The notes under the pieces: model-generated
Told to the model about the DNA's origin: nothing
The model's input: only the letters and a program-made list of their open reading frames with translations
Databases searched by the model: none
NCBI RefSeq assembly: GCF_002885955.2
Contig: NZ_POQS01000002.1
Coordinates: 848,266 to 912,265, forward strand
DNA length: 64,000 nt
Source: Achromobacter pulmonis
Lineage (GTDB): Bacteria > Pseudomonadota > Gammaproteobacteria > Burkholderiales > Burkholderiaceae_B
Direction: 5' to 3'
Position numbers and translations under genes: made by a program
Shown: positions 19,836-36,416 of the stretch, one piece after another
Position numbering within the stretch: the stretch's first letter is position 1
Layout: the number at the start of each line of letters is the position of its first letter

Positions 19836-20363
19836 TCATGCCCCCTCCCCGCCGTGGTTCCCGCGCAACGTAGAATCGGTGTCATTCGAGAATGTAGGGT
19901 GCAACGCAGACTTCACAGCCGCATAGACTTTCTGCGCGTCTTCGATCTTCGAATAGTTGCCAAGGGACACCGTGCGACCCTCATGTCGAATGGACGCCCG
20001 ATACCGACTTCCAACCTGGACGACACCAAGAACACCAAGTCGATTGGTGACCATCGCGCCATGAATGTTGTGAACGTTCTCTCGACGAGACACGACACGA
20101 AGATTGGACAGTCGGTTGTCCTGTCGATCTCCATTGACATGGTCGATGTCGCCATCTGGCCACTCGCCGTGCGAAAGCAGCCACGCGAGACGGTGCGCCG
20201 AAAGAATGCGCTTATGAATACCGATTTCTACATAGCCGTGCTTGTTTGTCCGACCGGCAACGCAACCGACCGCTATGCGCCGGTTTGGCGATTTCAACCA
20301 ACGGAAAAGGCCGGTGTCGGGGCTGTAGGAAAGAAACGGGGTTATGGTGTGCAGTTCAACCAT
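19836..20363 (-). CDS. HNH endonuclease with AP2-type DNA-binding domain
   Basis: The 175-residue protein has the HNH core LAWLLSHGEWPDGDIDHVNG followed by DRQDNRLSNLRVVSRRENVH at about residues 60-100. A C-terminal AP2-like domain follows (YRASIRHEGRTVSLGNYSKI, DAQKVYAAVKSALH). This is the standard phage homing endonuclease architecture. It lies between cro and cII, interrupting the usual spacing, so it is probably a later insertion. Confidence 0.88.
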   Translation of the reverse strand: MVELHTITPFLSYSPDTGLFRWLKSPNRRIAVGCVAGRTNKHGYVEIGIHKRILSAHRLAWLLSHGEWPDGDIDHVNGDRQDNRLSNLRVVSRRENVHNIHGAMVTNRLGVLGVVQVGSRYRASIRHEGRTVSLGNYSKIEDAQKVYAAVKSALHPTFSNDTDSTLRGNHGGEGA

Positions 20364-22174: not shown

Positions 22175-23035
22175 ATGAGCATCCTAGCCCCGACAGACAC
22201 AAGCGCTACCCCTATCGAAGCGCTCTCGTACAACATCCGATACGAAGGCGGCGATGCAGACGCCCATGAAATCGACTTGAACCAACTTGGCGTATCGCTA
22301 CAGGGGTTCGCGCGCGTTCTGGCGGTTTGCGCCCACTTTGCTCAGACCGGGAAGTACAATAAGCAATACGATGCTCTATCAGTCCAGGTGGTGGCTGAGC
22401 CGGTAGGGGAGCATAGATGCTACGAAATCTCGGTGGTAATCAAGGAGTTTTTGACCGCCAAAGAGCTGTGGTCTGGCTTTGCGGCGGCGGTGTTTACCGC
22501 GGTCGTAGCGGTTGTTCTAAATAGGCGCAAGAGCGAAGAAATGAAACTGCTGAATGAGGCTCTACAAAAGTCTCTGGCCCAGAATGAGGCCATGCAGTTG
22601 CGCCTGCTCCAAACTGTCGACAAGATGGTCGACGCGCTGCAACCCGCGGTAAAGCAAGCTCACGTCCCTATTGGTCGTTCGGTTCAAACGATCTCTGTCT
22701 ATCAGCAGGGGGCCCCGGCTCCAGCCACGGTACTTGACCGAGCATCGAAGGAGCTTGCGAATGCTCCAAAAGACACTTCAATAACCGAGACGCGCCCCTA
22801 CGTTGGCGTGATTTCTGAACTAGACATGCTATCCGGGAATTGCAAAGTTTCGCTGGACGGCTTCCCGCCGGATGAACGGATAAACGCAGTTATTACGGAT
22901 CCGGTCGTACAGCGCGCGGACAACGCTTATGTAGCGGCGATGGCGCGGATTTCTCCAGTTGCATTCTTGGCCAAGGCAGAAATCGACGCTGAGGGCGAAA
23001 TCGTACGGCTTCACATCAGCGATCTTTCCTCCTAG
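22175..23035 (+). CDS. Prophage-expressed single-pass membrane protein, unknown function
   Basis: A 286-residue protein. The N-terminal beta-rich part (ALSYNIRYEGGDADAHEIDL, NQLGVSLQGFARVLAVCAHF) is followed by one membrane segment (LWSGFAAAVFTAVVAVVLNR) at about residues 98-118. A helical coiled stretch (LLNEALQKSLAQNEAMQLRL) and a beta-rich C-terminal domain complete it. It lies downstream of cI in the same direction and ends at its own terminator, so it is likely expressed in the lysogen. Exclusion or defence is an inference from position and topology. No motif is recognised. Confidence 0.8.
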   Translation: MSILAPTDTSATPIEALSYNIRYEGGDADAHEIDLNQLGVSLQGFARVLAVCAHFAQTGKYNKQYDALSVQVVAEPVGEHRCYEISVVIKEFLTAKELWSGFAAAVFTAVVAVVLNRRKSEEMKLLNEALQKSLAQNEAMQLRLLQTVDKMVDALQPAVKQAHVPIGRSVQTISVYQQGAPAPATVLDRASKELANAPKDTSITETRPYVGVISELDMLSGNCKVSLDGFPPDERINAVITDPVVQRADNAYVAAMARISPVAFLAKAEIDAEGEIVRLHISDLSS

Positions 23036-23713: not shown

Positions 23714-24118
23714 ACATCCATGCGCTGCAAACACGGCGCAGGCAACAAGCCCTCGGCCTCGTATCCCAGCGAGAGGACGTTACCGCCACAAAGTCGGGTG
23801 GGCATGGGAAGCAGCACCAGCAGTACCGCTCCTTAACAACCAGCCAAGCGATAGAACAGGCCGATGGTCCGTAAGGACGGCTAGGCCCCGGGCGCAACCC
23901 TCCACCCCGGACGAAAGATCAGAGGCTATCCATTCCCTTGACCGGCGAGTTGTATTGCTGGGCCTGCGGTGGATTGAAGAGGCAGCGCATGGACTGGAGC
24001 CGCGTTAGCGGGAACAGCCAGGCTGTGCGTTGCCCCGGACTTCATCCGTCAGCCCGTTCTATGAGCGCTGGCTGACGAATGAATCCTCACCACCCGGTGA
24101 GCAACATGGGAGAACAGC
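23714..24118 (+). other. About 400-base leader without a recognisable gene
   Basis: This stretch follows the predicted pL and precedes the first early gene. It holds only a weak 38-codon frame (ATG at 23730). It has several potential hairpins, such as GTCC-GTAA-GGAC near 23868, the GC-rich run around 23885-23905, and CACCACCCGGTG near 24092. No N-type antiterminator gene is seen next to it. A long structured leader at this place could act as an antitermination or processing RNA (HK022 put sites are a precedent), but that is inference. Confidence 0.45.
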
Positions 24119-24301
24119 ATGGCGTACCTCACCAAGGTTCTGTACCGCAAATACCTCGAAGACGCCCGCCAGGCGCGCCGTGAAATCAACATGCCGGCGT
24201 GGCACTGCATCTTTACCGGCCTCGACTTCAACGCCAAGACGCGAAACGCCTCCTACTGGGAACGCATGAACCGCATCCAGCAACTCCGCACCGGAGCCTG
24301 A
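24119..24301 (+). CDS. Small early-operon protein, first gene
   Basis: A 60-residue basic protein (MAYLTKVLYRKYLEDARQAR, ending MNRIQQLRTGA) with a GGGAG ribosome site. It includes NAKTRNASYWERM. It is the first gene of the plus-strand early operon and is followed after one base by the next ATG. No family is recognised. Its basic helical character is compatible with RNA or DNA binding. Confidence 0.65.
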   Translation: MAYLTKVLYRKYLEDARQARREINMPAWHCIFTGLDFNAKTRNASYWERMNRIQQLRTGA

Positions 24302-24302
24302 C

Positions 24303-24494
24303 ATGAGCGAACAACCGATGCTTGTTGTGATCGATGCCAGCCGCAATCCGTGGAGGCTTACCAGATTTGACGGACGGACCATGGGCGAGACGGCGGAGTT
24401 GATTGTTCCGCCAGGGTCTTTACGAGAAGAGGTTTTGGAAGCGATCGAAGGATTTCGCGTCCGATCTCTGGAGGCTGTCGAAGCTGAAGCCTAA
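24303..24494 (+). CDS. Small early-operon protein
   Basis: A 63-residue acidic protein (MSEQPMLVVIDASRNPWRLT, ending in RSLEAVEAEA) encoded one base after the previous stop, so the two are probably co-translated. The N-terminal half looks beta-rich and the C-terminal half is one helix. No family is recognised. Confidence 0.6.
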   Translation: MSEQPMLVVIDASRNPWRLTRFDGRTMGETAELIVPPGSLREEVLEAIEGFRVRSLEAVEAEA

Positions 24495-24873
24495 CGCCTG
24501 CGCCGTGACAGGGCGTAGACCGATGAAGAATTTCCTGGGGGTGTAGCAGATCGAGGATGCCAGTCACGGCCCCCTGTTGACTGGATGCCGCGCACATATC
24601 AGGTCGTGAACGCCCGTACGCCAGTAAGCCGCGCGGGGAAGTAGGCGTGACAGCCGGAGAGACGGCACCGAGCAGCGGGGAACCCACTGTCCCCAGCGTG
24701 AGCCGAGTCGTTAAGTCGACAGGCAAGCAACAGCGCATGAAGCGCAGTGGGCGCGTGGAGCACGTAATGCGACTGACGGGCCGCTGAAGAAATGAGCGGT
24801 GACAGCCGGGAAAGACCGGCACTCCTATGCCAACCCATCCGGGTTCTGGCATTTCCAAGAACCTGGAGAAACC
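24495..24873 (+). ncRNA. Possible structured RNA upstream of the first variable lectin-like gene
   Basis: No gene-like frame fills these 379 bases. A hairpin motif occurs twice: GCCG-GAGAGA-CGGC near 24652 and GCCGG-GAAAGA-CCGGC near 24805, each preceded by GTGACA and followed by AC. Between them, GGGGA/TCCCC and the longer-range CCCACTG/CAGTGGG can pair. A last hairpin, ATGCCAACCC-ATCC-GGGTTCTGGCAT (24827-24852), ends 22 bases before the ATG of the lectin-like gene. The clustered pairing suggests a folded RNA or cis-element. I know of no matching family. Confidence 0.35.
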
Positions 24874-25326
24874 ATGAGCAATGCATTCGTAGTTGGCCAG
24901 TACGCAGAGGGCCAAGGCGGCATCTACATCGGCAAGACGGCGCAAGGGCGTCACCTGTTCGCGGCCGCGGCGCTGCTGGACGGCACGTTCGAATTCGGCG
25001 GCTACGGCGACAAGCTGGACGGCTACTCGGATCTGGACGGCACCGCGAACACCCGCAAGCTGCTGGTGCGCGGCGCTCATCCCGCCGCCGAAGCCGCATC
25101 CGAATACACCGCCGACGGCCTGGCTGACTTCTACCTGCCGTCCCATCGTGAGCTGCTGCAGGTGGTGGCGCTGGAAGGCTTCAGCGAGGACGCCGGCGAC
25201 GTGTGGACCTCGACGCCCTACGGCTCCTTCGGCGCCTGGGCGGTGGACTTCGAGGACGGCGACGTCTACCTCTGGGGCCGCGGCGACGAGTTCCGAGTTC
25301 GTCCCGTCCGCAGCATCATCGCTTGA
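24874..25326 (+). CDS. DUF1566/C-type-lectin-like variable protein, copy 1
   Basis: A 150-residue protein. The N-terminal part has EGQGGIYIGKTAQGRHLFAA. The middle is HPAAEAASEYTADGLADFYL and PSHRELLQVVA. The end is VWTSTPYGSFGAWAVDF with an EFRVRPVRSIIA terminus. The xYGSxxAWxVxFxxG...VRPVR end is that of DUF1566/Lcl-type lectin folds, a group that includes known targets of diversity-generating retroelements. Its last 31 framework codons match those of copies 2 and 3, although the rest of the proteins has diverged. A GC-rich hairpin follows the stop. The position among early recombination genes is unusual for a ligand-binding protein. Confidence 0.85.
   Translation: MSNAFVVGQYAEGQGGIYIGKTAQGRHLFAAAALLDGTFEFGGYGDKLDGYSDLDGTANTRKLLVRGAHPAAEAASEYTADGLADFYLPSHRELLQVVALEGFSEDAGDVWTSTPYGSFGAWAVDFEDGDVYLWGRGDEFRVRPVRSIIA
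25219..25311 (+). repeat. Putative variable repeat VR1 (93 bp)
   Basis: Codons 1-31 run from the Tyr of YGS to the Arg of PVR. Hypervariable codons 4, 5, 10, 13, 15, 18, 20, 22 and 23 read TTC, GGC, GAC, GAC, GAC, CTC, GGC, GGC, GAC. Every one ends in C, compatible with adenine mutagenesis of AAC (or GAC at codon 13). The remaining codons are identical in the other two copies, except one CGA/CGG difference. Confidence 0.7.
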
Positions 25327-25341
25327 TCGATTAATCCCTTT

Positions 25342-25360
25342 GCCCCGGCTTTGCCGGGGC
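25342..25360 (+). repeat. GC hairpin downstream of VR1
   Basis: GCCCCGGC-TTT-GCCGGGGC forms an 8-bp perfect stem, 15 bases after the stop codon and just after ATTAATCCCTT. It has no T-run, so it is not a clear terminator. Copies 2 and 3 have a hairpin in the same relative place. A hairpin of about 8 bp past the variable repeat is a known requirement for target recognition in the BPP-1 retroelement. Confidence 0.6.
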
Positions 25361-25520
25361 GCTCTCCCTCTGGCTGCTCAGGCCGGCGCATTCCAAGGCA
25401 AGGCCTCGGGCCCCTTGCCATCCTTCAACGTTCCAACACGCGAAAAAGCCAAGCCCTCCGGTATGGGCGATTGGTGTGCGCCGCCCTGAGCAATCGACCT
25501 TATCCCACACGGAGCAAACC

Positions 25521-25706
25521 ATGGAAATCACGACTTCCCAAGCAGTCGCCACGATGCAGAAGTATGGCGGAAACGGTGTCCAGAAGCTTGCCGCTTGCTG
25601 GCTTGCTCTGGATTCTGAGAAGCGCCAGCGTTTGGAGCAGGCGTTTGAGCCTGAGTTCAAGCACTACCGCACGATGTATGCGGAAGACGTGAAGGCGGCG
25701 GCGTAA
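25521..25706 (+). CDS. Small early-operon protein
   Basis: A 61-residue helical protein, MEITTSQAVATMQKYGGNGV followed by QKLAACWLALDSEKRQRLEQ. The ATG at 25521 has GGAGC upstream. The stop overlaps the next start (TAATG). The preceding 160 bases after the VR1 hairpin show no other gene. Family not recognised. Confidence 0.65.
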   Translation: MEITTSQAVATMQKYGGNGVQKLAACWLALDSEKRQRLEQAFEPEFKHYRTMYAEDVKAAA

Positions 25707-26083
25707 TGGAGACTTTCCGCGTTGCGTACCCGTTCGCGCTGGAAGAGTACAGCGGTCCGAAGGATGGCGAATTTTACGACGGGAAGACCTGGCGGCCCGG
25801 CGTCCGCTTCGAGGTGAGGGATAGCGGCTATCTGTATGACCCGGACCAGGTGGCGATTGCCGATGGGATGGGCCAGATGGTGCTGGAGGTCGTCAGCCGC
25901 CATAAGCCTGGAAAGTTCCCAGAACGCACGTTTTTCCTCCGGAGCTTTGTAGACCCAAACGGGCGAACCTTCGGCAAAGCAAAGCTACGCGTCACAACAA
26001 CACAGGCATTCAAGCGGATGGCCGCAGGTTATCGCCACGAATTTGAACGCGCCGACCAAAAACAGGACAAGGAACGCCCATGA
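25706..26083 (+). CDS. Hypothetical early phage protein
   Basis: A 125-residue protein with a beta-rich fold suggested by METFRVAYPFALEEYSGPKD, TWRPGVRFEVRDSGYLYD and LRSFVDPNGRTFGKAKLRV. Its C-terminus is basic and helical. It is coupled to the upstream gene (TAATG) and the downstream gene (ATGA). No catalytic motif is visible. Function unknown. Confidence 0.7.
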   Translation: METFRVAYPFALEEYSGPKDGEFYDGKTWRPGVRFEVRDSGYLYDPDQVAIADGMGQMVLEVVSRHKPGKFPERTFFLRSFVDPNGRTFGKAKLRVTTTQAFKRMAAGYRHEFERADQKQDKERP

Positions 26084-26355
26084 GCAAGCCCAATCTGCCG
26101 CCGCTTCCTACTGAGCGCATCGGCGGCAAGGAAATGAGCCAAGTCTGGTTTCGTGCGCATGAGGTACGCGCCTACGCCGAGGAAGCTGTACGCCAGGCTC
26201 TGGCGGCGCAGGTGCCGGTGGCCTGGGTAATTCATGCACGCAAAGAACTAAGCGACCCACAGTTCTGTTGGGGGAATCCGGCGGGCATCTATCAATCGAT
26301 CTATGTCCCCCTCGCCCTCATCCCGGAGAAAGGCGATGGACATATACCACGGTGA
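26080..26355 (+). CDS. Hypothetical early phage protein
   Basis: A 91-residue protein, MSKPNLPPLPTERIGGKEMS then QVWFRAHEVRAYAEEAVRQA. I recall this FRAHEVRAYAEEAVRQAL stretch from betaproteobacterial phages as the start of an uncharacterised family, often with a variable C-terminus. It overlaps the genes on both sides. Function unknown. Confidence 0.7.
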   Translation: MSKPNLPPLPTERIGGKEMSQVWFRAHEVRAYAEEAVRQALAAQVPVAWVIHARKELSDPQFCWGNPAGIYQSIYVPLALIPEKGDGHIPR

Positions 26356-26608
26356 TGAACAGTACGAGGTCCTCACTGCCACGGTGCAGGACGTATGCCA
26401 GACGCTGGGCAATCCAGCCAGCTGGGATGCAGATGGGCATGACGCGCTGTACTGGGTCAAGCGGCTGGACGATGCGGATTTCTTCGCCAACCTGAGCCAC
26501 GCCGACTACATGTCGATCCTGTACGCGGTGATGAACAGCAATAGCCAATGGTGCTTGGCCCTGCAGCGGGATATCAAGCACGCAATCGCTACCGAACTTG
26601 AGGGGTGA
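26336..26608 (+). CDS. Hypothetical early phage protein
   Basis: The ATG at 26336 (MDIYHGDEQYEVLTATVQDV) is preferred over an upstream frame start because GGAGAAAGG precedes it. The 90-residue acidic protein includes YWVKRLDDADFFANLSHADY. It overlaps the previous gene by 20 bases. No family is recognised. Confidence 0.65.
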   Translation: MDIYHGDEQYEVLTATVQDVCQTLGNPASWDADGHDALYWVKRLDDADFFANLSHADYMSILYAVMNSNSQWCLALQRDIKHAIATELEG

Positions 26609-26610
26609 GC

Positions 26611-26838
26611 ATGAACACGATCAACGACGGTGGCCCGGCCTTCCTCAACGTGCCCGATGGCGCTGGCGATAGGTGGGGCACGTGGGATATGGGGATGACC
26701 CTTCGCGACTACTTCGCGGCCAAGGCCATGCAGGGAGATATCGCCGCCGGCGCCGACAAAAGGCCGGACGTCGCCGATTGTGCTGCCTGGGCCTACAAAA
26801 TGGCCGACGCCATGCTGGCCGCCCGAGGCGCCCAATGA
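26611..26838 (+). CDS. Conserved small phage protein
   Basis: The ATG at 26611 has GAGGGG 7 bases upstream. The 75 residues, MNTINDGGPAFLNVPDGAGD and GMTLRDYFAAKAMQGD, follow a pattern (NDGGPAFP...GMTLRDYFAAKAM) common in proteobacterial prophages and still without a known role. Its stop overlaps the next start (ATGA). Confidence 0.8.
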   Translation: MNTINDGGPAFLNVPDGAGDRWGTWDMGMTLRDYFAAKAMQGDIAAGADKRPDVADCAAWAYKMADAMLAARGAQ

Positions 26839-26996
26839 TCCGCCGCCTCCTGAAAGACCGCGACAACGCCGTCGCCTCGCTGGTCGTCGCCGGCGTGCTG
26901 ACTGCCCTGATCTTCGGCTACGGCGAAGTCCAGCAGCGCGACGAAACCATCATCGCCCAGGACGGGCGCCCGACCGCTTATGCGGCTAAGGAATGA
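26835..26996 (+). CDS. Small single-pass membrane protein
   Basis: A 53-residue protein coupled by ATGA to the gene before it. AVASLVVAGVLTALIFGYGE forms one membrane helix at about residues 12-31, followed by a hydrophilic tail (QRDETIIAQDGRPTAYAAKE). The next gene starts one base after its stop. Function unknown. Confidence 0.6.
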   Translation: MIRRLLKDRDNAVASLVVAGVLTALIFGYGEVQQRDETIIAQDGRPTAYAAKE

Positions 26997-26997
26997 C

Positions 26998-28095
26998 ATG
27001 GCCCAAACGACCGAACTCGCCGAACTGCCGCCCCAGGAAACCGCGCTGGAGGTGTATTCGAAGCCCTCGGGCCTGGAACCCTGGCTGGACAAGATCCGCG
27101 CCGAGGTGGCCGGCCATGTGCCGGACATGTCGACGAAGAAGGGCCGCGAGGCGACCGCCAGCCTGGCGTTCAAGGTACGCAAGTCCAAGACCGCGCTCGA
27201 CGCCCTGGGTAAGCAGCTCGTGGACAACTTGAAGGACGTCCCGAAGCGGATCGATGCCGAGCGCAAGCGCATGCGGGACACGCTGGATGCCCTGGCAGAT
27301 GAGGTGCGTAGGCCCTTGACTGAGTGGGAGCAGGCTGAGGAAGACCGAATCCAGCGCCACAAGGACGCGATTGAAGGCATCGTATCTCTGACCGTCAACT
27401 GTGGCGAATCGGTGGAATCCATCCGCGCAGCCGTCGCAGCGGTGGAAACCGTTGCCATCGGTCCAGAATGGGAAGAGTTCGAACCGGAAGCCGCCAGAGC
27501 GAAAGACAAGGCGCTGACCGGTCTGCGCGATCGCCTGGCCGCCCGCACAAAGTATGAAGCGGAGCAGGCGGAACTAGCCCGCTTGCGCGCCGCTCAAGCC
27601 GAACGTGAGCAGAAGGAGCGAGAAGAACGCATCGCCCGGGAAGCTGCCGAAAAGGCCCAACGTGAAGCCGAGGCCCGCGCCCAAGCGGAACGCGAAGCCG
27701 CGATCAGGCGCGCGCAGGAAGCCAAGGCAGCGGCCGAGCGCCGGGAACTGGAATTGAAGCTGCAAGCCGAGCAGGCTGAAAAGGCGGCAGCACAGGCCAA
27801 GGCAGACCAAATCGCCGCAGAACACCGCGCTGAGCAGGAGCGTCTAGCCGCCATCGAGCGTGAGAAGCAAGCCGCCGAGGCAGCCCGACAAGCAGAGATC
27901 AAGCGCCAGGCTGACGCCAAGGCAGCAGAAGAATCCGAGGCCCGGCGCCGCGAGGCCGACAAGGCGCACAAGGCCAGCATCAATCGCGCCGCCCTGGATG
28001 CGTTCGTCCGGGCTGGCATGCCCGAGGACTGTGCCAAACAGGCGGTCACGCTGATCGCCAAGGGACAGATCCCCAACATCCGAATCACTTACTGA
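26998..28095 (+). CDS. Coiled-coil early protein upstream of ERF
   Basis: The ATG at 26998 (MAQTTELAELPPQETALEVY) gives 365 residues. The N-terminal portion (WLDKIRAEVAGHVPDMSTKK, then ASLAFKVRKSKTALDALGKQ) is a recognisable start for proteins encoded before phage annealing genes. Residues about 185-325 are an extended Ala/Glu/Arg/Gln-rich coiled coil. The C-terminus (AFVRAGMPEDCAKQAVTLIA, IPNIRITY) is globular. It may act with the ERF/exonuclease pair, judged from position. Confidence 0.8.
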   Translation: MAQTTELAELPPQETALEVYSKPSGLEPWLDKIRAEVAGHVPDMSTKKGREATASLAFKVRKSKTALDALGKQLVDNLKDVPKRIDAERKRMRDTLDALADEVRRPLTEWEQAEEDRIQRHKDAIEGIVSLTVNCGESVESIRAAVAAVETVAIGPEWEEFEPEAARAKDKALTGLRDRLAARTKYEAEQAELARLRAAQAEREQKEREERIAREAAEKAQREAEARAQAEREAAIRRAQEAKAAAERRELELKLQAEQAEKAAAQAKADQIAAEHRAEQERLAAIEREKQAAEAARQAEIKRQADAKAAEESEARRREADKAHKASINRAALDAFVRAGMPEDCAKQAVTLIAKGQIPNIRITY

Positions 28096-28102
28096 GAACG
28101 CC

Positions 28103-28882
28103 ATGACTGAAGTTATCGACGCCCCGGCCCGAGCAGTGGCCACGCAGCCCGAGCCGACCGCCGGCCAAGTCGCCGTACTCGCCGCCAACTCGCCCATGGG
28201 CATGATGATGGCTGCCGTCAAGCAAGGCATTCCCCTGGATCAGATCAAGGAAATGATGGCAATCCAGCGCGAATGGGAGGCCGACGAGGCACGCAAGGCC
28301 TTCAACGACGCCTTCGCCGCGTTCAAGGCCGAGAAGGTGGACGTCATCAAGCGCAAGCAGGTCGACTTCGCCACCTCGAAGGGTCGCACGCAGTACAAGC
28401 ATGCCGAACTTTCCGACCTGACCGACGCTGTGGGCCCGGCACTGGCTCGCCACGGATTCTCCTGGAGCTGGACGCCCGAGCAGAAGAACGGCCGCATCTA
28501 CATCACATGCACCCTGCAGCACCGGCTCGGCCATGAGAAGTCGGCAACGATGGATGCCCCCGCTGACGACAGCGGCGGCAAGAACACCATTCAAGCCATC
28601 GTCTCCACCACCACCTACCTGGAGCGCCACACCCTGAAGGCGGTTTGCGGAATCTCCGAAAAGGGCGACGACAACGACGGCGCGGGCGCGGACGACGCGG
28701 CTTATGACCTGCGCGACGAATGGATCAGCAAGCTGGCCCAGGCGGAAACGCTCGATGACGCTGCCACGGTCTGGCAGGAAGGCTGCAAGGCAATCGAGCC
28801 GACTAACAATCTCGCCGCTTTCGCCGCCTTCAAGAAGGCATACGGCGACAAACGCAACATGCTCAAGCAGGAGATCACATAA
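28103..28882 (+). CDS. erf: ERF-family single-strand annealing protein
   Basis: The 259-residue protein contains FNDAFAAFKAEKVDVIKRKQ, YKHAELSDLTDAVGPALARH and AIVSTTTYLERHTLKAVCGI, the core signatures of the P22 Erf superfamily. ERF anneals complementary strands for phage recombination and genome circularisation. It overlaps the following exonuclease gene by one base (TAATG), an arrangement matching lambda bet/exo in function. Confidence 0.9.
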   Translation: MTEVIDAPARAVATQPEPTAGQVAVLAANSPMGMMMAAVKQGIPLDQIKEMMAIQREWEADEARKAFNDAFAAFKAEKVDVIKRKQVDFATSKGRTQYKHAELSDLTDAVGPALARHGFSWSWTPEQKNGRIYITCTLQHRLGHEKSATMDAPADDSGGKNTIQAIVSTTTYLERHTLKAVCGISEKGDDNDGAGADDAAYDLRDEWISKLAQAETLDDAATVWQEGCKAIEPTNNLAAFAAFKKAYGDKRNMLKQEIT

Positions 28883-29517
28883 TGGACCTGATTTTCCATA
28901 AGGCCCCTCAGGGAACGCCCGAATGGCTGGACGCCCGCCGTGGCGCCATCACTGGCAGCCGATTCAAGGATTGTCGTGACAAGCTGAAAGGCGGCTCTCC
29001 ATCCAAGAAGTGTCAAGACTATGCAATGGACGTCGCGCGCGAACGTGTTGGCGGCCGCGCGCCGGAGATATTCGCCAATGCCGCGATGCGAACCGGCACC
29101 GAACAAGAGCCATTCGCACGTGCCGCCTACGAGGCAAAGACTGGAAATTTCGTGGAAGAGGCCGGATTCATCACGACCGAGGACCGCCTATTCGGCGTGA
29201 GCGTGGACGGCCTCGTTGACGACGACGGAATCATCGAGATCAAGACGATGGTTTCGTCCGGCACCCTCTTCACGGCCGTGGTAGACGGTGATATCAGCGC
29301 ATACACCGACCAGTGCAATGGCGCCATGTGGCTTCTGGGCCGCAAATGGGTTGACCTCGTTCTGTGGGCGCCCGATCTGGAGCCCATCGGGCGGCAGCTT
29401 ACGATCATCCGGATAGAACGAGACGACAACGCCATCGAAGATTTGGAGGCTGACTTGATGGCGTTCGAGCGCATGGTAACCAATTACGAAAACCTGCTCA
29501 AAAAGGAGGCAGCTTAA
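28882..29517 (+). CDS. YqaJ-type 5'-3' exonuclease (lambda Exo-like)
   Basis: The 211-residue protein has TPEWLDARRGAITGSRFKDC at the N-terminus, GTEQEPFARAAYEAKTG, and active-site segments LFGVSVDGLVDDDGIIEIKT (D...ExK) and AYTDQCNGAMWLLG. It would resect double-stranded ends to give strands for the ERF protein. It is directly followed by ssb. Confidence 0.92.
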   Translation: MDLIFHKAPQGTPEWLDARRGAITGSRFKDCRDKLKGGSPSKKCQDYAMDVARERVGGRAPEIFANAAMRTGTEQEPFARAAYEAKTGNFVEEAGFITTEDRLFGVSVDGLVDDDGIIEIKTMVSSGTLFTAVVDGDISAYTDQCNGAMWLLGRKWVDLVLWAPDLEPIGRQLTIIRIERDDNAIEDLEADLMAFERMVTNYENLLKKEAA

Positions 29518-29519
29518 TC

Positions 29520-29951
29520 ATGGCCCAACTATTTGGCCTCGCCCGCATCGGCCGAGACGTCGTCGTACGCCGCACGCAGAACGGCGAGTCCGTAGCTAAC
29601 TTAGCTCTGGCATTCACCTATGGCAAGAAAGACGCCGACGGCAGGCGCCCCACTCAGTGGGTGGACGCCTCGCTTTGGGGCCAGCGCGCTGAGACCCTCT
29701 CGCAGTACCTAACGACCGGCGTCAAGGTCAGCGTCACCATCGATGAAGTGCACATCGAAAACTACGAGCGCCAGAGCGGTGAGCGCGGCGCCAAGCTCGT
29801 GGGCCGCGTGTCCAACATCGAATTCGGTGGCGCACCACAGCAGCAACAGCCCGCCTCGGCGTCGTCCCGCCAGCAAGCGGAGCAGCGCACCGCGTCGCAA
29901 CCCTCTCAAGCATCAACTCTGGCCGACATGTCGGACGACGTGCCGTTCTAG
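29520..29951 (+). CDS. ssb: Single-stranded DNA-binding protein
   Basis: The 143-residue protein begins MAQLFGLARIGRDVVVRRTQ and has an OB fold (SVANLALAFTYGKKDADGRR; WVDASLWGQRAETLSQYLTT). A Gln/Ser-rich linker follows, then the acidic tip ADMSDDVPF, which binds SSB partners such as recombination proteins. It completes the exonuclease-annealing-SSB module. Confidence 0.95.
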   Translation: MAQLFGLARIGRDVVVRRTQNGESVANLALAFTYGKKDADGRRPTQWVDASLWGQRAETLSQYLTTGVKVSVTIDEVHIENYERQSGERGAKLVGRVSNIEFGGAPQQQQPASASSRQQAEQRTASQPSQASTLADMSDDVPF

Positions 29952-29989
29952 ACTCTACGCCGCGCCGCGGCAAACTCCCAAGGAAAACC

Positions 29990-30562
29990 ATGAACGACAC
30001 GATCCAGTTGGATCTGGGCGGCGGTTCGCGCCTGGAGGTCCCTGCACGCATTGCGCTTGACGCACTTCTTGAGCGCTTGAGCTCCGCTCCTTCCCGACTG
30101 TCCAGGCCGGCCCTGATCGGTGCCACGCTACCCGGCCAAGGCGGGATCTACGCCGGCGACATTCTCGGCGATGACGGAACAGTCTACGGGCTTGTAGTGG
30201 CCGAAGATGACCTGCAAGGCACCTACCAGTGGAGCCCAGCCGACGGCGAGATCAAAGCCAGCAGTTGGGACGGACTGGTCAACACGAATACCCTGCTCCG
30301 TCAGTCCAGTAGCCACCCCGCTGCCCGCGCGGCTAAGGCCTACAGCGCAGATGGCCATGCCGATTTCTATCTGCCGGCCAAGCGCGAGATGCAAATCATC
30401 GCCGCCAACGTGCCGCACCTGTTCCAACCTGAGCCCTACTGGACTTCGACGCCCTACGGCTCCAACGGCGCCTGGGCGGTGTACTTCGAGGACGGCGCCG
30501 TCTACTACTGGCTCCGCGACGGCGAGTTCCGAGTTCGTCCCGTCCGCAGATTTACCTATTGA
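29990..30562 (+). CDS. DUF1566/C-type-lectin-like variable protein, copy 2
   Basis: The 190-residue protein has an N-terminal extension (MNDTIQLDLGGGSRLEVPAR). The lectin-like domain follows: GQGGIYAGDILGDDGTVYGL, HPAARAAKAYSADGHADFYL, PAKREMQIIAANVPHLF, YWTSTPYGSNGAWAVYF, and the VRPVRRFTY end. It is only moderately similar to copy 1 outside the final 31 codons, yet nearly identical in nucleotides there except at hypervariable codons. The start has AAGGAAAACC upstream. It lies between ssb and copy 3. Confidence 0.85.
   Translation: MNDTIQLDLGGGSRLEVPARIALDALLERLSSAPSRLSRPALIGATLPGQGGIYAGDILGDDGTVYGLVVAEDDLQGTYQWSPADGEIKASSWDGLVNTNTLLRQSSSHPAARAAKAYSADGHADFYLPAKREMQIIAANVPHLFQPEPYWTSTPYGSNGAWAVYFEDGAVYYWLRDGEFRVRPVRRFTY
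30455..30547 (+). repeat. Putative variable repeat VR2 (93 bp)
   Basis: Aligned without gaps to VR1, it differs at 10 of 93 bases. All differences fall in first or second positions of the hypervariable codons, which read AAC, GGC, TAC, GAC, GCC, TAC, CTC, GAC, GGC. AAC at codon 4 may be an unmutated template codon. The other 22 codons are identical to VR1. Confidence 0.7.
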
Positions 30563-30578
30563 TCCCTTTATCCCTTGA

Positions 30579-30593
30579 GCGGGCGAGGCCCGC
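30579..30593 (+). repeat. GC hairpin downstream of VR2
   Basis: GCGGGC-GAG-GCCCGC follows ATCCCTTTATCCCTT after the copy 2 stop. The same ATCCCTTyATCCCTT plus hairpin arrangement follows copy 3. Its last bases also begin the ribosome site of copy 3. Confidence 0.6.
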
Positions 30594-30604
30594 AGGAGAC
30601 TCGC

Positions 30605-31009
30605 ATGACCGCTACCGCAACGACTACGCCCGCCATCGGGCAAGAATGGCCCGAACAGGGCGGACTCTTCATCGGATCCCGTCTGATTGACGGCGTAGTC
30701 CACCACCGCATCATCCCGGGCGGCGTTGAGTTCGATCTGGTAGATGTCGAGTTCGATGACCTGGCCGACGCAATAGCTGAACGCGGCGAGGTCAACGGCC
30801 ATTCCGACTGGCAGGCGCCGGACCAGGAAGACATGATGCTGGCCTACATCAACACCCCGGACCTCTTCGACAAGGACGACTGGTACTGGACGAACAAGCC
30901 CTACGGCTCCTTCTACGCCTGGGCGGTGGATTTCGAGGGCGGCCGCGTCTACTTCTGGCTCCGCCGCAGCGAGTTCCGGGTTCGTCCCGTCCGCAGCATC
31001 ATCGCTTAA
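30605..31009 (+). CDS. DUF1566/C-type-lectin-like variable protein, copy 3
   Basis: The ATG at 30605 follows AGGAG, giving 134 residues. WPEQGGLFIGSRLIDGVVHH, ADAIAERGEVNGHSDWQAPD and DDWYWTNKPYGSFYAWAVDF lead to the EFRVRPVRSIIA end. Even WTSTP of the other copies is replaced (WTNKP), so similarity jumps abruptly at the YGS codons. That jump is the main argument for copying of the 3' block. The N-terminus lacks the extension of copy 2. It is followed by a hairpin and then an HNH gene. Confidence 0.85.
   Translation: MTATATTTPAIGQEWPEQGGLFIGSRLIDGVVHHRIIPGGVEFDLVDVEFDDLADAIAERGEVNGHSDWQAPDQEDMMLAYINTPDLFDKDDWYWTNKPYGSFYAWAVDFEGGRVYFWLRRSEFRVRPVRSIIA
30902..30994 (+). repeat. Putative variable repeat VR3 (93 bp)
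   Basis: Hypervariable codons read TTC, TAC, GAT, GGC, CGC, TTC, CTC, CGC, AGC. There are 13 differences from VR1 and 14 from VR2. The only ones outside codon positions 1-2 of the nine variable codons are GAT for GAC (codon 10) and CGG for CGA (codon 26). The latter is an A-to-G change, as adenine mutagenesis would give. Confidence 0.7.
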
Positions 31010-31024
31010 TCCCTTCATCCCTTT

Positions 31025-31039
31025 GCGGGCGTAGCCCGC
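31025..31039 (+). repeat. GC hairpin downstream of VR3
   Basis: GCGGGC-GTA-GCCCGC follows AATCCCTTCATCCCTT after the copy 3 stop, in register with the copy 2 hairpin. There is no T-run. Confidence 0.6.
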
Positions 31040-31079
31040 CGATGCCATGGCCCTGCACACTGGGCCTAGGAGGATTTTC

Positions 31080-31574
31080 ATGGACGTCGTATGGAAACCT
31101 ATACCTGGGTTCCCTCGGTACTCAGCTAGCAACACAGGCTTGGTGCGCAGCGAAAAACGGCCTGTTTCAACTTTCCCCGACCGCAAGGGTTATCTGAAGG
31201 TCAAGGTGGCGCAGGGCGACGGACGGCGTGTCGGACGCCTTGTTCACCGGCTTGTTGCCCTGGCCCATCTTGGCAATATCCCGGACGGCCTAGTTGTATG
31301 CCATATCAACGGCGATAAAACCGACAACGCAGTATCCAACCTTCGCATATCGACCTCCTCGGAGAACGAACTCGATAAGCGCAGTCACGGCACCGCGCCC
31401 GTTGGCTCAAACCATCCGCGTAGCAAGCTGACCGAAACCGAGGTTTTGGAAATTCGCGCAATGCATGCCAAGCGCACGCCCGGGCGAAGCGCAGCAGCCC
31501 TTGGAAGAAAGTACGGCGTCTCCGGCGATACCGTCTGGCGCATCGTCCACCGCGAACTCTGGGCGCATATCTAA
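31080..31574 (+). CDS. NUMOD4-HNH homing endonuclease
   Basis: The ATG at 31080 has a strong GGAGGA site. The 164-residue protein starts with the NUMOD4-like motif WKPIPGFPRYSASNTGLVRS. The HNH core is LVVCHINGDKTDNAVSNLRI, then STSSENELDK. A C-terminal helix-turn-helix follows (AAALGRKYGVSGDTVWRIVH). The architecture matches the enzyme at 32497. It lies immediately after the variable lectin-like genes. Confidence 0.9.
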   Translation: MDVVWKPIPGFPRYSASNTGLVRSEKRPVSTFPDRKGYLKVKVAQGDGRRVGRLVHRLVALAHLGNIPDGLVVCHINGDKTDNAVSNLRISTSSENELDKRSHGTAPVGSNHPRSKLTETEVLEIRAMHAKRTPGRSAAALGRKYGVSGDTVWRIVHRELWAHI

Positions 31575-31655
31575 CCCACGGCTTCCTCCCCTGTCCCTGC
31601 ATCCCCCGAGCCCCCGCAAAGCTGGCGGGGCTGCCCTTCTTTGCCTGGAGATGTT

Positions 31656-31799
31656 ATGCGCCACACAGATAAATGGTTCCCCGACGAGGACGATGACGCT
31701 TCAGGCGAGATTAACCCTGTCGCTTACGCCTTGGCTGCTTTTGCCGTCTACGTTGCCCTGGCTGCCATCTGGATATTCCGCAGCGAGATTTGGAGCTGA
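31656..31799 (+). CDS. Small membrane protein
   Basis: A 47-residue protein (MRHTDKWFPDEDDDASGEIN) with one membrane helix (VAYALAAFAVYVALAAIWIF) near the C-terminus. The ATG has CCTGGAGATGTT upstream; another ATG at 31651 is out of frame. It ends two bases before the next ATG. The 80 bases before it hold a GC hairpin (AGCCCC...GGGGCT) and no gene. Function unknown. Confidence 0.6.
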   Translation: MRHTDKWFPDEDDDASGEINPVAYALAAFAVYVALAAIWIFRSEIWS

Positions 31800-31801
31800 G
31801 C

Positions 31802-32500
31802 ATGAACAACGAATGGAAGACCATCGACAGCGCGCCGAAGACAGGGCGCACTCTGCTGCTTGGATACTGGAATTCCCACGGTAACTGGCGCACAGTTCGT
31901 GGACGGTGGATGTCTCTCGAATACATAGCTGAGCACTGGGAAGACCCGGACGAAGCAGAGGAAGGATGGTTCGAAACCGCAGTCGAGGCCGATGACGCGC
32001 CGAACTGCTGGTCGGTCAGTCCCTCGCACTGGCAACCCATGCCCGTGCCTCCCTGCCCGACCTGCAATGACCAGGGCGCGGTCGGCAATATCCTGACCGC
32101 CGCGCCGTGCCCTGAATGCACCCCTCCCGCCAGCGCACAGGACGATGCGAAGGACGAGCGCCAGGCGGACGCTTGCCCGCGTTGCGACGGTAGCGGCGAG
32201 ATAACCGTGATGAGTGACAACAGCCCGGACGCGCATGACGTGATTTTCTGCTGCGACCACTGCCAGGGGTCGCGGGCAGCGACGGACGCCGCCAAGTATC
32301 TTGCGGCCGCTCTGTCTGGCGAGAAATACCGGCACATGCAGCTATGGGGCGAATACCGCAACTTCCACCGCAGCCTGTGCGCACGCTTCGGATACGGCCA
32401 TGACCAGGTGCATTTCCGCCGCGATCTGGTGTCGTTGGAAGAGGCCATCGCCGCCAAGGTCAGCGCTCCCGCTGCTGGCGATGCGGAGACCAAGTCATGA
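31802..32500 (+). CDS. Phage protein with DUF551-like start and multiple zinc motifs
   Basis: The 232-residue protein begins MNNEWKTIDSAPKTGRTLLL, a DUF551-like opening found in many phage proteins. The middle has paired CxxC units: PCPTCND and PCPECT, then ACPRCDGSG and CCDHCQG. These resemble the zinc fingers of DnaJ and tail assembly factors. A helical C-terminal region contains YRNFHRSLCARFGYGHDQVH. It appears to be a fusion of separate modules. The role is unknown. Confidence 0.75.
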   Translation: MNNEWKTIDSAPKTGRTLLLGYWNSHGNWRTVRGRWMSLEYIAEHWEDPDEAEEGWFETAVEADDAPNCWSVSPSHWQPMPVPPCPTCNDQGAVGNILTAAPCPECTPPASAQDDAKDERQADACPRCDGSGEITVMSDNSPDAHDVIFCCDHCQGSRAATDAAKYLAAALSGEKYRHMQLWGEYRNFHRSLCARFGYGHDQVHFRRDLVSLEEAIAAKVSAPAAGDAETKS

Positions 32501-33030
32501 AAATGCCCGTCCCTGGATTTGAGAGTTACAGCGTTGATTCTGATGGCATCGTCTATGGAAAGAACGGACTTCCCATGCGTCCATGCAAGAACTGGAAAGG
32601 GTATCTACGAGTTTGTTTTCATCAAGACGGGAAAAAGCGGTACAGCAGCGTACACGCACTGGTGCTGGAAGTATTTGTTGGACCGCGTCCAACGGGGATG
32701 CAAGCCTGCCATTTCGACGGGGACAAGTCGAACAACAGGCTGAGCAATCTTCGGTGGGCAAGCCAATCGGAGAACCAGAAGGACAACGCTCGCCTTGGGA
32801 CGATAGCCAAAGGTGAAAAAAATGGAGCGGCCAAAATCACCGCCGAACAAGCACGTTTGATTGTCGAACGACGCATGGCAGGGGGGAAAGAATGGGGCCG
32901 CGCCGCTATCGCCGCAGAACTGGGAATCAGTGTAGATCTGGCATCCAAGATAGCGCATGGAAAGCTTTGGCAGCACGCTACGGGCATGCAGTACCAGCGG
33001 ATGGCAGCCTCTCAGCAGCAGGAGGGGTAG
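32497..33030 (+). CDS. HNH homing endonuclease, paralogue architecture
   Basis: The 177-residue protein overlaps the previous stop (ATGA). It has a NUMOD4-like start (PVPGFESYSVDSDGIVYGKN), an HNH core (MQACHFDGDKSNNRLSNLRW, ASQSENQKDN) and a C-terminal helix-turn-helix (AAIAAELGISVDLASKIAHG). This is the same domain order as the enzyme at 31080 but with clearly diverged sequence, so it is not a recent duplicate. Confidence 0.9.
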   Translation: MKMPVPGFESYSVDSDGIVYGKNGLPMRPCKNWKGYLRVCFHQDGKKRYSSVHALVLEVFVGPRPTGMQACHFDGDKSNNRLSNLRWASQSENQKDNARLGTIAKGEKNGAAKITAEQARLIVERRMAGGKEWGRAAIAAELGISVDLASKIAHGKLWQHATGMQYQRMAASQQQEG

Positions 33031-34941: not shown

Positions 34942-35163
34942 ATGTTGCAACGTGCGGTAGAGCCTGCAGTGCAGGTCGCGCCGGCACCCTATGTGACGAT
35001 AGCGCTCGCCGCTACCATCACGGGCCTTACGGAGAAGGCGATCCGCCGTAAGATCGAAGCCGGCAAATGGATCGAAGGGCGCGAATGGATCCGCTCCTGC
35101 GACGGCGGAATTTTCATTTCAATGGCAGGGTACCGACAATGGGTAGAAAAGGGACAGGCGTAG
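34942..35163 (+). CDS. xis: Excisionase
   Basis: A 73-residue protein with GGAGG before its ATG. PYVTIALAATITGLTEKAIR followed by KWIEGREWIRSCDGGIFISM is the MerR/winged-helix pattern of phage excisionases (DUF1233-like). It overlaps the integrase start by 25 bases. Xis would bend the attachment site DNA and steer integrase towards excision after induction. Confidence 0.85.
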   Translation: MLQRAVEPAVQVAPAPYVTIALAATITGLTEKAIRRKIEAGKWIEGREWIRSCDGGIFISMAGYRQWVEKGQA

Positions 35164-36314
35164 AGATCCGCGAGAAGTCCATCCGGATTTCCTTTACCCT
35201 CGATGGCGCCAAGAAACGGGAAACCCTCAAGGTGAATGGCACGCCCATGCTGCCGACGCCAGCCAACATCAAGTACGCAGAGCGGCTGGCAATCGAGATC
35301 CGGGAGAAGATCCGTCACGGCGCTTTTAGCATGGCGGAGTACTTCCCGGAGTCGGTCGCCGAAGTAGACGGTACGGTTGGCGGTCAGCTGGACGTCTGGG
35401 TCGCATCGCAGCGCATCGAGAACTCCACCAAGGACGGGTATTCTAGCGCCATCAAGTTCTGGAAGAACGGCGTTGCCGATAAGCACGGGCTGCGCCTTGG
35501 GCAAATTCCCCTGCGCCGCCTGAAGCTCAGCCACATCCTGACCGTCATAGCCAGCCGGCCGGACCTGACCGGGAAAACCGTCAACAACTATGTATCCGTC
35601 CTGCGGCAGGCCCTTGAGTTGGCAGTACAGGACAAGGTTCTGACCGACAACCCGGCCGAGGGTGTGCCGCGGGCCAAGCACCAGAAGGAGCCGCCCGATC
35701 CTTTCAGTCTTGAAGAAGCCGAGGCCATCATCGCCTATGCGGCCGAGAAGTATCCAGAGCCGGTCTACAACATGATCGAAGCTTGGTTTTTCACCGGCCT
35801 GCGTACGTCCGAAGTGTTCGGCACCCGATGGCCTAATGTCGATCTTAGGGACAAGACCGCTCAAATCGTGGAGGCCATTGTCCGCGGCGAACGAAAGTCC
35901 CGAACAAAGACCAATACCGGTCGTCTGGTCAAGCTCAACAGCCGCAGCTTCGCCGCCTTCCATCGGCAGGAGAAACACTCGCGGATGCGTGGTGAGCAGG
36001 TTTGGCTGGACCCCAGGTATGGGACGGCCTGGGAGGATGAGCGGGCGTTTCGCCGCAGCTATTGGTCACCGGCCTTGAAAATCTTGGGAATCCGATACAG
36101 GCGCCCATACAACATCCGTCACACCTACGCGACGATGATGCTGATGGCTGGCATGCGCCCGGCGTTCTGCGCCAAGCAGATGGGGCACAGCATCCAGGTG
36201 TTTCTGACCACCTATGCAAAGTGGCTGGACGGCGCCCACGACGACCTTGAAATGGCCAGGCTAGAGTCCGCAATTACCCCGAATGTTCCCCGAGAAAACA
36301 AAACAGGCACCTAA
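35139..36314 (+). CDS. int: Tyrosine-recombinase integrase
   Basis: The ATG at 35139 (MGRKGTGVEIREKSIRISFT) gives 391 residues. A DUF3596-like arm-binding domain lies at residues 1-70, a SAM-like core-binding domain at about 85-185, and a catalytic domain after that. Catalytic Arg is in FFTGLRTSEVFGTRW. The second box reads RPYNIRHTYATM, where the usual first His is Tyr/Asn-like, a frequent variant. The nucleophile is Tyr in VFLTTYAKWLDG. It ends 26 bases before the 3' end of tRNA-His, pointing at that tRNA as the integration site. Confidence 0.95.
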   Translation: MGRKGTGVEIREKSIRISFTLDGAKKRETLKVNGTPMLPTPANIKYAERLAIEIREKIRHGAFSMAEYFPESVAEVDGTVGGQLDVWVASQRIENSTKDGYSSAIKFWKNGVADKHGLRLGQIPLRRLKLSHILTVIASRPDLTGKTVNNYVSVLRQALELAVQDKVLTDNPAEGVPRAKHQKEPPDPFSLEEAEAIIAYAAEKYPEPVYNMIEAWFFTGLRTSEVFGTRWPNVDLRDKTAQIVEAIVRGERKSRTKTNTGRLVKLNSRSFAAFHRQEKHSRMRGEQVWLDPRYGTAWEDERAFRRSYWSPALKILGIRYRRPYNIRHTYATMMLMAGMRPAFCAKQMGHSIQVFLTTYAKWLDGAHDDLEMARLESAITPNVPRENKTGT

Positions 36315-36339: not shown

Positions 36340-36416
36340 TGGGGTGGCTGATGGGACTCGAACCCACGACAACCGGAATCACAATCCGGGACTCTACCAA
36401 CTGAGCTACAGCCACC
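36340..36416 (-). tRNA. tRNA-His (anticodon GTG); probable prophage attachment site
   Basis: The minus strand reads as a full cloverleaf: acceptor GTGGCTG/CAGCCAC with a 5' G at -1, D-arm TAGCTCAGTTGGTAGAG, anticodon loop TTGTGAT in a CCGGA/TCCGG stem, T-arm GTGGGTTCGAGTCCCAT, and an encoded CCA. The extra 5' G is the histidine-specific identity element. The integrase gene abuts its 3' end. Since the tRNA is intact, phage DNA probably restored the 3' part on integration. The matching att repeat should lie left of position 1. Confidence 0.95.

Follow-up and report, generated by a model that had tools for sequence, protein, structure and literature searches.

Probable targets of a diversity-generating retroelement without its core, and an HNH endonuclease gene in the core slot, in an Achromobacter pulmonis prophage

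In the diversity-generating retroelement (DGR) of Bordetella phage BPP-1, whose target protein is Mtd, adenine-specific changes distinguish the C-terminal variable repeat (VR) of a C-type-lectin fold from the template repeat (TR), and a reverse transcriptase (RT), the protein Avd and a GC-rich hairpin behind the VR belong to the system. Here we analyzed a stretch of 64,000 nucleotides from Achromobacter pulmonis (assembly GCF_002885955.2, contig NZ_POQS01000002.1, positions 848,266 to 912,265; hereafter the window), in which a prophage carries three lectin-like genes. Very probably these genes are the target set of a DGR whose core (avd, TR and RT) is missing and has an HNH endonuclease gene in its place; an ancestral core likely diversified them, and at present they are likely frozen, barring the supply of a core by a related phage. 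The observations behind this reading are the adenine-only differences between VRs and TRs, the gene order in relatives, the absence of the core, the HNH gene at the exact place of the core and the GC-rich hairpins.

According to Roux et al. (2021, PMC8144416), phage DGRs are mostly tied to host-attachment proteins, and their own metagenome search would miss targets distant from the RT. A few phages are known to have several DGR targets (PMC10743442). Targets without a core have also been described: isolates of T. denticola possess VR-bearing target genes in genomes devoid of RT and TR, with mostly adenine differences from the TR of a relative. Unlike the genes studied here, these lie on a bacterial chromosome and encode cell-surface proteins, and the accessible part of that article mentions no endonuclease in the place of the core (PMC4891356). 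An endonuclease replacing a DGR core was not found in the literature searched, which comprised titles, the beginnings of abstracts, parts of PMC12386605 and PMC8987985 and few subscription papers. Free-standing phage homing endonucleases with NUMOD4 and HNH_3 domains have the same domain make-up as the product of the window gene, for which cutting and homing are putative; unlike them, the window gene fills the slot of a retroelement core.

The group of DGRs to which the locus belongs resembles that of BPP-1 in the adenine-specific changes, the C-terminal VR in a predicted C-type-lectin fold, the GC-rich hairpin and, in relatives of the prophage, Avd and RT. It differs in having two to four targets per TR, in the Lcl_C domain of the targets and in their location beside genes for Erf, an exonuclease and a single-strand DNA-binding protein (SSB) instead of tail genes; its RT is 31.5% identical to the one Bordetella phage RT compared (vB_BbrP_003), and the window has no core. 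Of the parallel to BPP-1 drawn in the original prediction, a reading of the letters without database searches, the adenine pattern stands, but the position beside recombination genes argues against a tail-fibre element of the BPP-1 type. The RTs of the Pseudomonas phages Cruim01 and Haboob and of Burkholderia phage Magia are 60.6-63.7% identical to those of the relatives. These phages likewise encode Avd or a four-helix-bundle protein near recombination genes; Cruim01 has Lcl_C targets, Haboob a target resembling gene 2, and a Magia gene is annotated as 'potential DGR target, contains IMH-like region'. Unlike the window, all three hold the core.

Target genes and adenine-specific repeats

The three repeats of the window (VR1 to VR3, Table 1) align without gaps over 31 codons. 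Twenty-one codons have the same nucleotides in all copies, codon 26 shows a silent change (CGA/CGA/CGG), and codons 4, 5, 10, 13, 15, 18, 20, 22 and 23 vary; 26 of the 27 variable codons end in C, the lone exception being GAT at codon 10 of copy 3. These figures of the original prediction were re-counted and are all correct. A fourth copy was not found within the window, where the runner-up matched 36 of 66 framework bases. All three target open reading frames (ORFs) are intact, with the repeat at the C-terminal end of each protein. The proposed lectin/DUF1566-type domain was recovered, since Pfam Lcl_C (PF07603) matched all three proteins, two above the gathering score and target 1 slightly below it (31.9 versus 34.9 bits). 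An AlphaFold model of target 2 (predicted local distance difference test score 78) had the C-terminal domain of Legionella Lcl (8q4e, E 1.9e-5) as its sole PDB match with E <0.001, and a C-terminal VR in a C-type-lectin-like fold is predicted. In the three target proteins no hydrophobic stretch of the membrane-helix type was found (highest 19-residue Kyte-Doolittle mean 0.93), and none of them matched the models of defence systems.

Relatives were taken from IMG/VR phage records (L numbers) and from genomes of the genus and family (G numbers; G000 is the genome of the window). Gene 2 was detected in 20 IMG/VR records, 15 of which have a match to the RT model RVT_1; the remaining five include fragments. 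The genus genomes G011, G025 and G039 also have such a match. Among 268 family genomes, 15 contained a relative of gene 2, in 13 cases with an RT within a few kb; the two others are the genome of the window and G068. The gene-2 relative of G068 (contig C4, 173139-173714) lies about 160 kb from the sole RVT_1 match and may be another core-less target. In the Achromobacter relatives, the genes are arranged in the order gene 2, gene 3, avd, TR, RT. Their Avd matched the PHROG 'Avd protein of DGR' (E 2e-28) and Pfam bAvd (40.3, cut-off 40), and scored 50.4 bits with NCBIfam DivGenRetAVD, under the cut-off of 80. The TR, for example at 11591-11683 of L028, has AAC or AAT at all nine variable codons and AAC also at codon 17; it differs in 2 of 93 bases from a composite template derived from the three window blocks.

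The proposed origin of the repeats by adenine mutagenesis of AAC template codons is borne out by these TRs, which lie beside RT and Avd, and by the differences between repeats. In 24 VRs from nine RT-bearing phages, 290 of 550 adenines of the phage's own TR were changed, compared to 3 of 1682 other bases (Fisher P ~2e-203). These counts exclude L037, because part of its TR resembles a VR, and the first VR of L029, which has a one-base shift; with the misaligned L029 row included, they become 305/573 and 33/1752. When VR1 to VR3 of the window were each compared with the best TR of a relative, 43 of 69 adenines and 1 of 210 non-adenines differed; against the TR of L027 only, the values were 43/69 and 2/210 (Fisher P = 7e-30). 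VR1 and VR2 have the TR-marker haplotype nnC, CGA, and VR3 has nnT, CGG.

Closely related copies of target 1 behave in the same way. Between L092 and L094, L090 and L093, and L028 and L090, respectively, 1, 6 and 9 of the 345 bases upstream of the VR differ, and within the VR 13, 15 and 16 of 24 adenines and none of the 69 other bases. As a counter-case, the VRs of L025 and L088 are identical despite 24/345 upstream differences. The non-adenine marker bases of the TR equal those of the VRs within each counted phage and differ from phage to phage, as expected if each TR overwrites its own targets; L037 is the exception. The second half of the L037 TR (11591-11683) has VR-like non-adenine codons, as though the template had been overwritten from one of its own VRs. 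L029 (6156-7226) is a phage with four targets, the first with an apparent one-base shift in the VR that breaks the frame. The original prediction would have been refuted if no genome with these genes had an RT or a template and if related isolates had no A-biased variation; both RT and template exist in relatives carrying the genes, and A-biased variation was found between them.

Four adenine-containing framework codons that are unchanged in the window had been regarded as counter-evidence. For the two TAC codons this objection falls away: codon 17 is AAC in 9/9 TRs and variable in relatives, the window copies simply sharing TAC, and codon 1 is TAC in 8/9 TRs with its A changed in 6/24 VRs. 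The GAG codons 12 and 24 are mostly unchanged, as had been stated, but not fixed, with an adenine change in 1/24 VRs each.

The Rfam RNA RT-15 (RF03018) ends 3 bases upstream of the TR block in L028, L030 and Cruim01. Its matches (11398-11587 in L028, 11398-11587 in L030 and 8542-8734 in L138) adjoin the TR and overlap the end of avd, a position that makes RT-15 the probable leader of the template RNA in this DGR group. It scored above the cut-off in 3 of 43 genus genomes, the same three that have RT and targets, and below it in G002; the Rfam model found no RT-15 in the window or its own genome, in a scan whose filters are stricter above 40 genomes. Among the papers listed in a literature search for it, none used the name RT-15.

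GC-rich hairpins are located behind 3/3 VRs of the window (Table 1) and behind 0/10 TRs. Their loops of 3-4 nt do not follow the GRNA rule of BPP-1, in which a hairpin behind the VR is needed for efficient homing (PMC3240598). In RT-bearing relatives, the loop at target 1 is mostly CTTG (TTT in the window) and that behind VR2, where a hairpin is present, GAA or GCA (GAG in the window). The two deviating loops might suggest a decay of the target sites, but 3 of the 27 VRs in RT-bearing phages also have no perfect stem.

The core slot and its HNH gene

In the window, homology to RT-bearing relatives breaks off at the start of avd and resumes with the sequence behind their RT gene, with the HNH gene in between (Table 1). 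Its product matched NUMOD4 and HNH_3 above the cut-offs and also homing-endonuclease models (PADLOC 'homing endonuclease'). A profile search of the window gave no RVT_1 match, about five codons are left of avd, and only chance-level matches to avd or RT were obtained elsewhere in the window by tblastn, even when the stretch downstream of the HNH gene was searched very permissively. The core is present in the closest relative, L027, which shares 94.2% identity with the window over 26809-31060. Outside the VRs, the sequence left of the probable breakpoint within gene 3 is ~98% L027-like, and the right side is more similar to L031 and L029. The junction is shared by L031, a metagenomic phage distinct from the window prophage, along with a related HNH gene (8/175 residues and 20/96 fourfold sites differ), and the 38.7-kb record of L031 gave no RT match. 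The DGR target reading of the original prediction is thus supported by TR, RT, Avd and hairpins of relatives, but was incomplete, as the core is missing here and an HNH gene stands instead. Under our reading, an ancestor of the prophage would have carried the avd-TR-RT core, and an L027-like phage would have gained VR3 and the HNH segment by recombination near 30.85-30.89 kb and thereby lost it. Two further HNH_3 endonuclease genes are present in the prophage (window 32497-33030, plus strand, and 19836-20363, minus strand), which is thus rich in HNH endonuclease genes.

Table 1. Features of the target region in the window (position 1 is the first letter of the window).
Feature	Position	Strand	Remarks
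Target gene 1	24874..25326	+	150 aa, Lcl_C, intact
VR1	25219..25311	+	versus L027 template: 14/23 adenines changed, 0/70 other bases
GC-rich hairpin	25342..25360	+	31 nt behind VR1; 8-bp stem, TTT loop
Erf-like single-strand annealing protein gene	28103..28882	+	between targets 1 and 2
Phage exonuclease gene	28882..29517	+	
SSB gene	29520..29951	+	directly upstream of target 2
Target gene 2	29990..30562	+	190 aa, Lcl_C, intact; fold predicted
VR2	30455..30547	+	versus L027 template: 13/23 adenines changed, 1/70 other bases
GC-rich hairpin	30579..30593	+	32 nt behind VR2; 6-bp stem, GAG loop
Target gene 3	30605..31009	+	134 aa, Lcl_C, intact
Probable recombination breakpoint	30854..30892		within gene 3, just upstream of VR3
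VR3	30902..30994	+	versus L036 template: 16/23 adenines changed, 0/70 other bases
GC-rich hairpin	31025..31039	+	31 nt behind VR3; 6-bp stem, GTA loop, as in relatives
avd-start remnant, ~5 codons	31047..31060	+	homology to RT-bearing relatives stops here
NUMOD4 + HNH_3 endonuclease gene in the avd-TR-RT slot	31047..31574	+	likely true start ATG 31080 after AGGAGG
Resumed homology to the sequence directly behind the relatives' RT gene	31629..31702	+	L036, L029

The original prediction had proposed a search of the complete host genome for a matching template and an RT. In the host's own assembly, neither DNA nor pattern search gave a TR beyond the three VRs (in the DNA search, 40 of 59 candidates were scored). 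The nearest RT, on contig C19, is 36-38% identical and has an unrelated template, and the next ones are frames of 512-600 aa with 25-36% identity; the assembly contains 13 RVT_1 matches in all, of which those besides C19 were not checked singly. With no matching TR in the host, one would expect the targets to be frozen at present. The C19 retroelement was rejected as a source acting in trans on the window targets, its template being different. This second, unrelated DGR-like locus (L007; G000 contig C19, 1-2432, minus strand) has a 348-aa RT, a TR-like stretch full of AAC/AAT codons and upstream repeats of another target family, the target copies of which contain single unresolved bases (n).

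Several points weigh against our reading. Because the window holds no RT and no remnant of avd beyond about five codons, we infer the loss of the core from relatives. The host genome does hold a second DGR-like RT, that on C19, though with an unrelated template. The window represents one assembly, and the IMG/VR record L026, identical over 18068 bases, may come from the same isolate. The other fold matches of target 2 are weak (a Bacteroides fimbrial protein with E 0.011 and C-type lectin-like domains with E >=0.09). Finally, RT-less phages elsewhere keep adenine-only differences, which argues against frozen targets in general.

Recurrence of the exchange and possible rewriting in trans

The slot was classified in 112 non-redundant groups with at least 2 kb behind the last target, the states being set by RT length; part of the loci came from one search, of which 80 of 98 loci were taken. 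The core was present in 83 groups, an HNH gene in 9, an RT fragment in 2 and neither RT nor HNH in 18; two of the latter groups had an Avd hit, and some of their contigs may stop too early. The loci L084, L086, L088, L090, L092, L093 and L097 end 0.5-3.8 kb behind target 1 and were not counted as losses; L084, L088 and L097 nonetheless sit among the 18 groups with neither gene. L031, with <2 kb behind its last target, is outside the census.

The nine HNH groups represent five junction types, namely that of the window, that of phage Aurca01 (Aurca type, five groups) and those of L215, L185 and L261. C-terminal remnants of the RT occur in three of them (Aurca, L215, L185). In searches of the whole records, L183, L147, L148, L149, L192, L215 and L185 were found to hold C-terminal RT pieces only, L146 has a full RT that is 98% identical to that of Cruim01, and no RT piece was found in the whole record of L261. 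As a background value, 3 plus-strand HNH hits were obtained in 1,294,266 nt of 101 other loci, and 0 of the 83 core groups had an HNH gene within 900 nt behind the RT. Because L192, of the Aurca type, was reached only via an HNH query and the window was the starting point, the share of HNH groups cannot be taken as an unbiased rate; L215, L185, L261 and the remaining Aurca-type members were reached via target queries.

Two phages of Pseudomonas syringae, Aurca01 and Medea1, have kept both targets and carry a NUMOD4/HNH gene instead of the avd-TR-RT of their relative Cruim01; in Aurca01 it is annotated 'RecB', and it is 37% identical to the window HNH gene. RVT_1 matches were not found in the complete genomes of Aurca01 and Medea1. 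In Aurca01, the HNH gene is followed by sequence corresponding to the final 29 codons of the RT gene of Cruim01, which shows that in this case the core was there first and was lost, not gained. The core has been exchanged for an HNH gene at five junction types with the targets retained, and this recurrent presence in the slot may point to site-specific cutting and homing by the HNH enzyme. Cruim01 versus Aurca01 and Medea1, and L027 versus the window, form natural core-plus/core-minus pairs, suited to the questions of whether targets persist longer than the core that mutates them and whether a phage can be diversified by another one. Two further records, L087 and L045, have target 1 and SSB (L087 also Erf and the exonuclease) as solo target genes; targets 2/3 and the core were not found over 9.2 and 7.1 kb downstream, respectively, nor RVT_1 in either record.

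The alternative that survives best is that the targets are not frozen: the prophage would be a non-autonomous client, and related RT-bearing phages would rewrite its repeats in trans with their TR and RT in co-infected or co-lysogenic cells; we regard this as rather unlikely for the window. It draws on the RT-less phages. Target 1 of Aurca01 and Medea1 differs in 4/504 bases upstream of VR1 and within VR1 in 15/29 template adenines and 0/58 other bases, the sequence behind it being similar; in target 2 of the same phages, the values are 31/504 upstream, 15/29 adenines and 1/58 non-adenines. Compared with the Cruim01 template, the VRs of both phages have only 0-1/58 non-adenine mismatches. Target 2 of Medea1 and L183, in whose record only a C-terminal RT piece is left, shows 4/504 differences upstream of VR2 and 13 adenine and 0 non-adenine differences in the repeat. 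A donor would be at hand, since RT-bearing Cruim01 and Aurca01 have the same host strain and 4607 bp in common at 99.87%. Yet several RT-bearing phages whose repeats were different beforehand may each have acquired the HNH segment independently, or recombination may swap repeats: the target before the HNH gene of L147, L148 and L149, which have one VR in common, matches Cruim01 target 1 over the 504 bases upstream of the VR. The Aurca type has lost the hairpin behind VR2, which speaks against homing in trans at that site if the BPP-1 rule holds. Rewriting in trans also fits poorly with the identical VRs of L025 and L088 and with the lack of a matching TR in the window's own host. The adenine-site differences of the RT-less phages would fit rewriting in trans, recombination at VRs or a separate spread of the HNH segment into several core-bearing phages.

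A wider version of this idea, which we put forward tentatively as possible rather than probable, is that HNH genes repeatedly evict the core from early-region DGRs and that co-infecting core-bearing phages keep the client targets diverse in trans, so that hypermutation of intracellular early proteins would be split between autonomous and satellite elements. Core-less DGR targets as such are already known; what surprises is that the HNH swap recurs and that the targets may live as clients.

The repeats of core-less phages could also be reshuffled without reverse transcription, through homologous recombination between VRs to which the HNH enzyme and the neighbouring Erf, exonuclease and SSB genes may contribute. 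The VR frameworks are nearly identical across targets and phages, and mosaic junctions at or near VRs occur in the window and in L147-L149. We consider this explanation improbable, because only a single such junction was seen in the window and the adenine-only pattern still needs an RT at its origin; cutting by the HNH enzyme is a prediction to which no site is assigned. Far less probable still is an active DGR whose core is present in the host and was dropped in the assembly. The host assembly does consist of 96 contigs with 5.68% contamination, but the window lies inside one 1.07 Mb contig and is free of undetermined bases, L031 has the same junction independently, and no TR (by DNA, pattern or RT-15 search) and no close RT were found. 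That the genes never belonged to a DGR and are ordinary paralogues under gene conversion and positive selection, as a homogenised block in three paralogues might suggest, can be practically dismissed, as the same genes of relatives adjoin TR, Avd, RT and RT-15 RNA and show 290/550 adenine versus 3/1682 non-adenine changes.

Probable early-region setting of the targets

The genes for Erf, the exonuclease and SSB lie between targets 1 and 2, and an S24-type repressor and the integrase are located in the same region. In lambdoid phages, such recombination genes mark the early region. With the window proteins as tblastn queries, Erf, exonuclease or SSB was found near the targets in 17 of 24 loci, window included; no match was obtained in L030, L033, L037, L039, L043, L084 and L094, some of these loci being short, and in L030 an SSB-like ORF upstream of gene 2 was recognized by eye. 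Neighbours of this kind are also annotated in Cruim01, Aurca01 and Medea1. In Haboob and Magia, a Bet/nuclease and a RecT/nuclease pair, respectively, lie at a distance of a few kb, whereas PAN70, which has a target and no RT, has no recombination-gene neighbours in its annotated stretch. The target family matched Lcl_C and PHROGs without assigned function, and a tail or receptor-binding role was not indicated, judged by location only.

The target proteins are therefore likely early and intracellular and not parts of the tail. They would act early, inside the cell, as binders of variable specificity, and a DGR family acting on several lectin-fold proteins whose genes adjoin those for early recombination would point to a binding role early in infection. 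One may speculate that Erf aids the homing of cDNA; neither Erf nor RecT is mentioned in the accessible part of PMC12875486.

In the window, no convincing gene was recognized by eye in the ~0.8 kb upstream of target 1 (24090-24873), and a gene with DUF7946 and DUF7947 domains follows the repressor (22175-23035). A tRNA-His gene (36340-36415, minus strand) lies directly beside the integrase gene (35067-36314) and is likely the attachment site.

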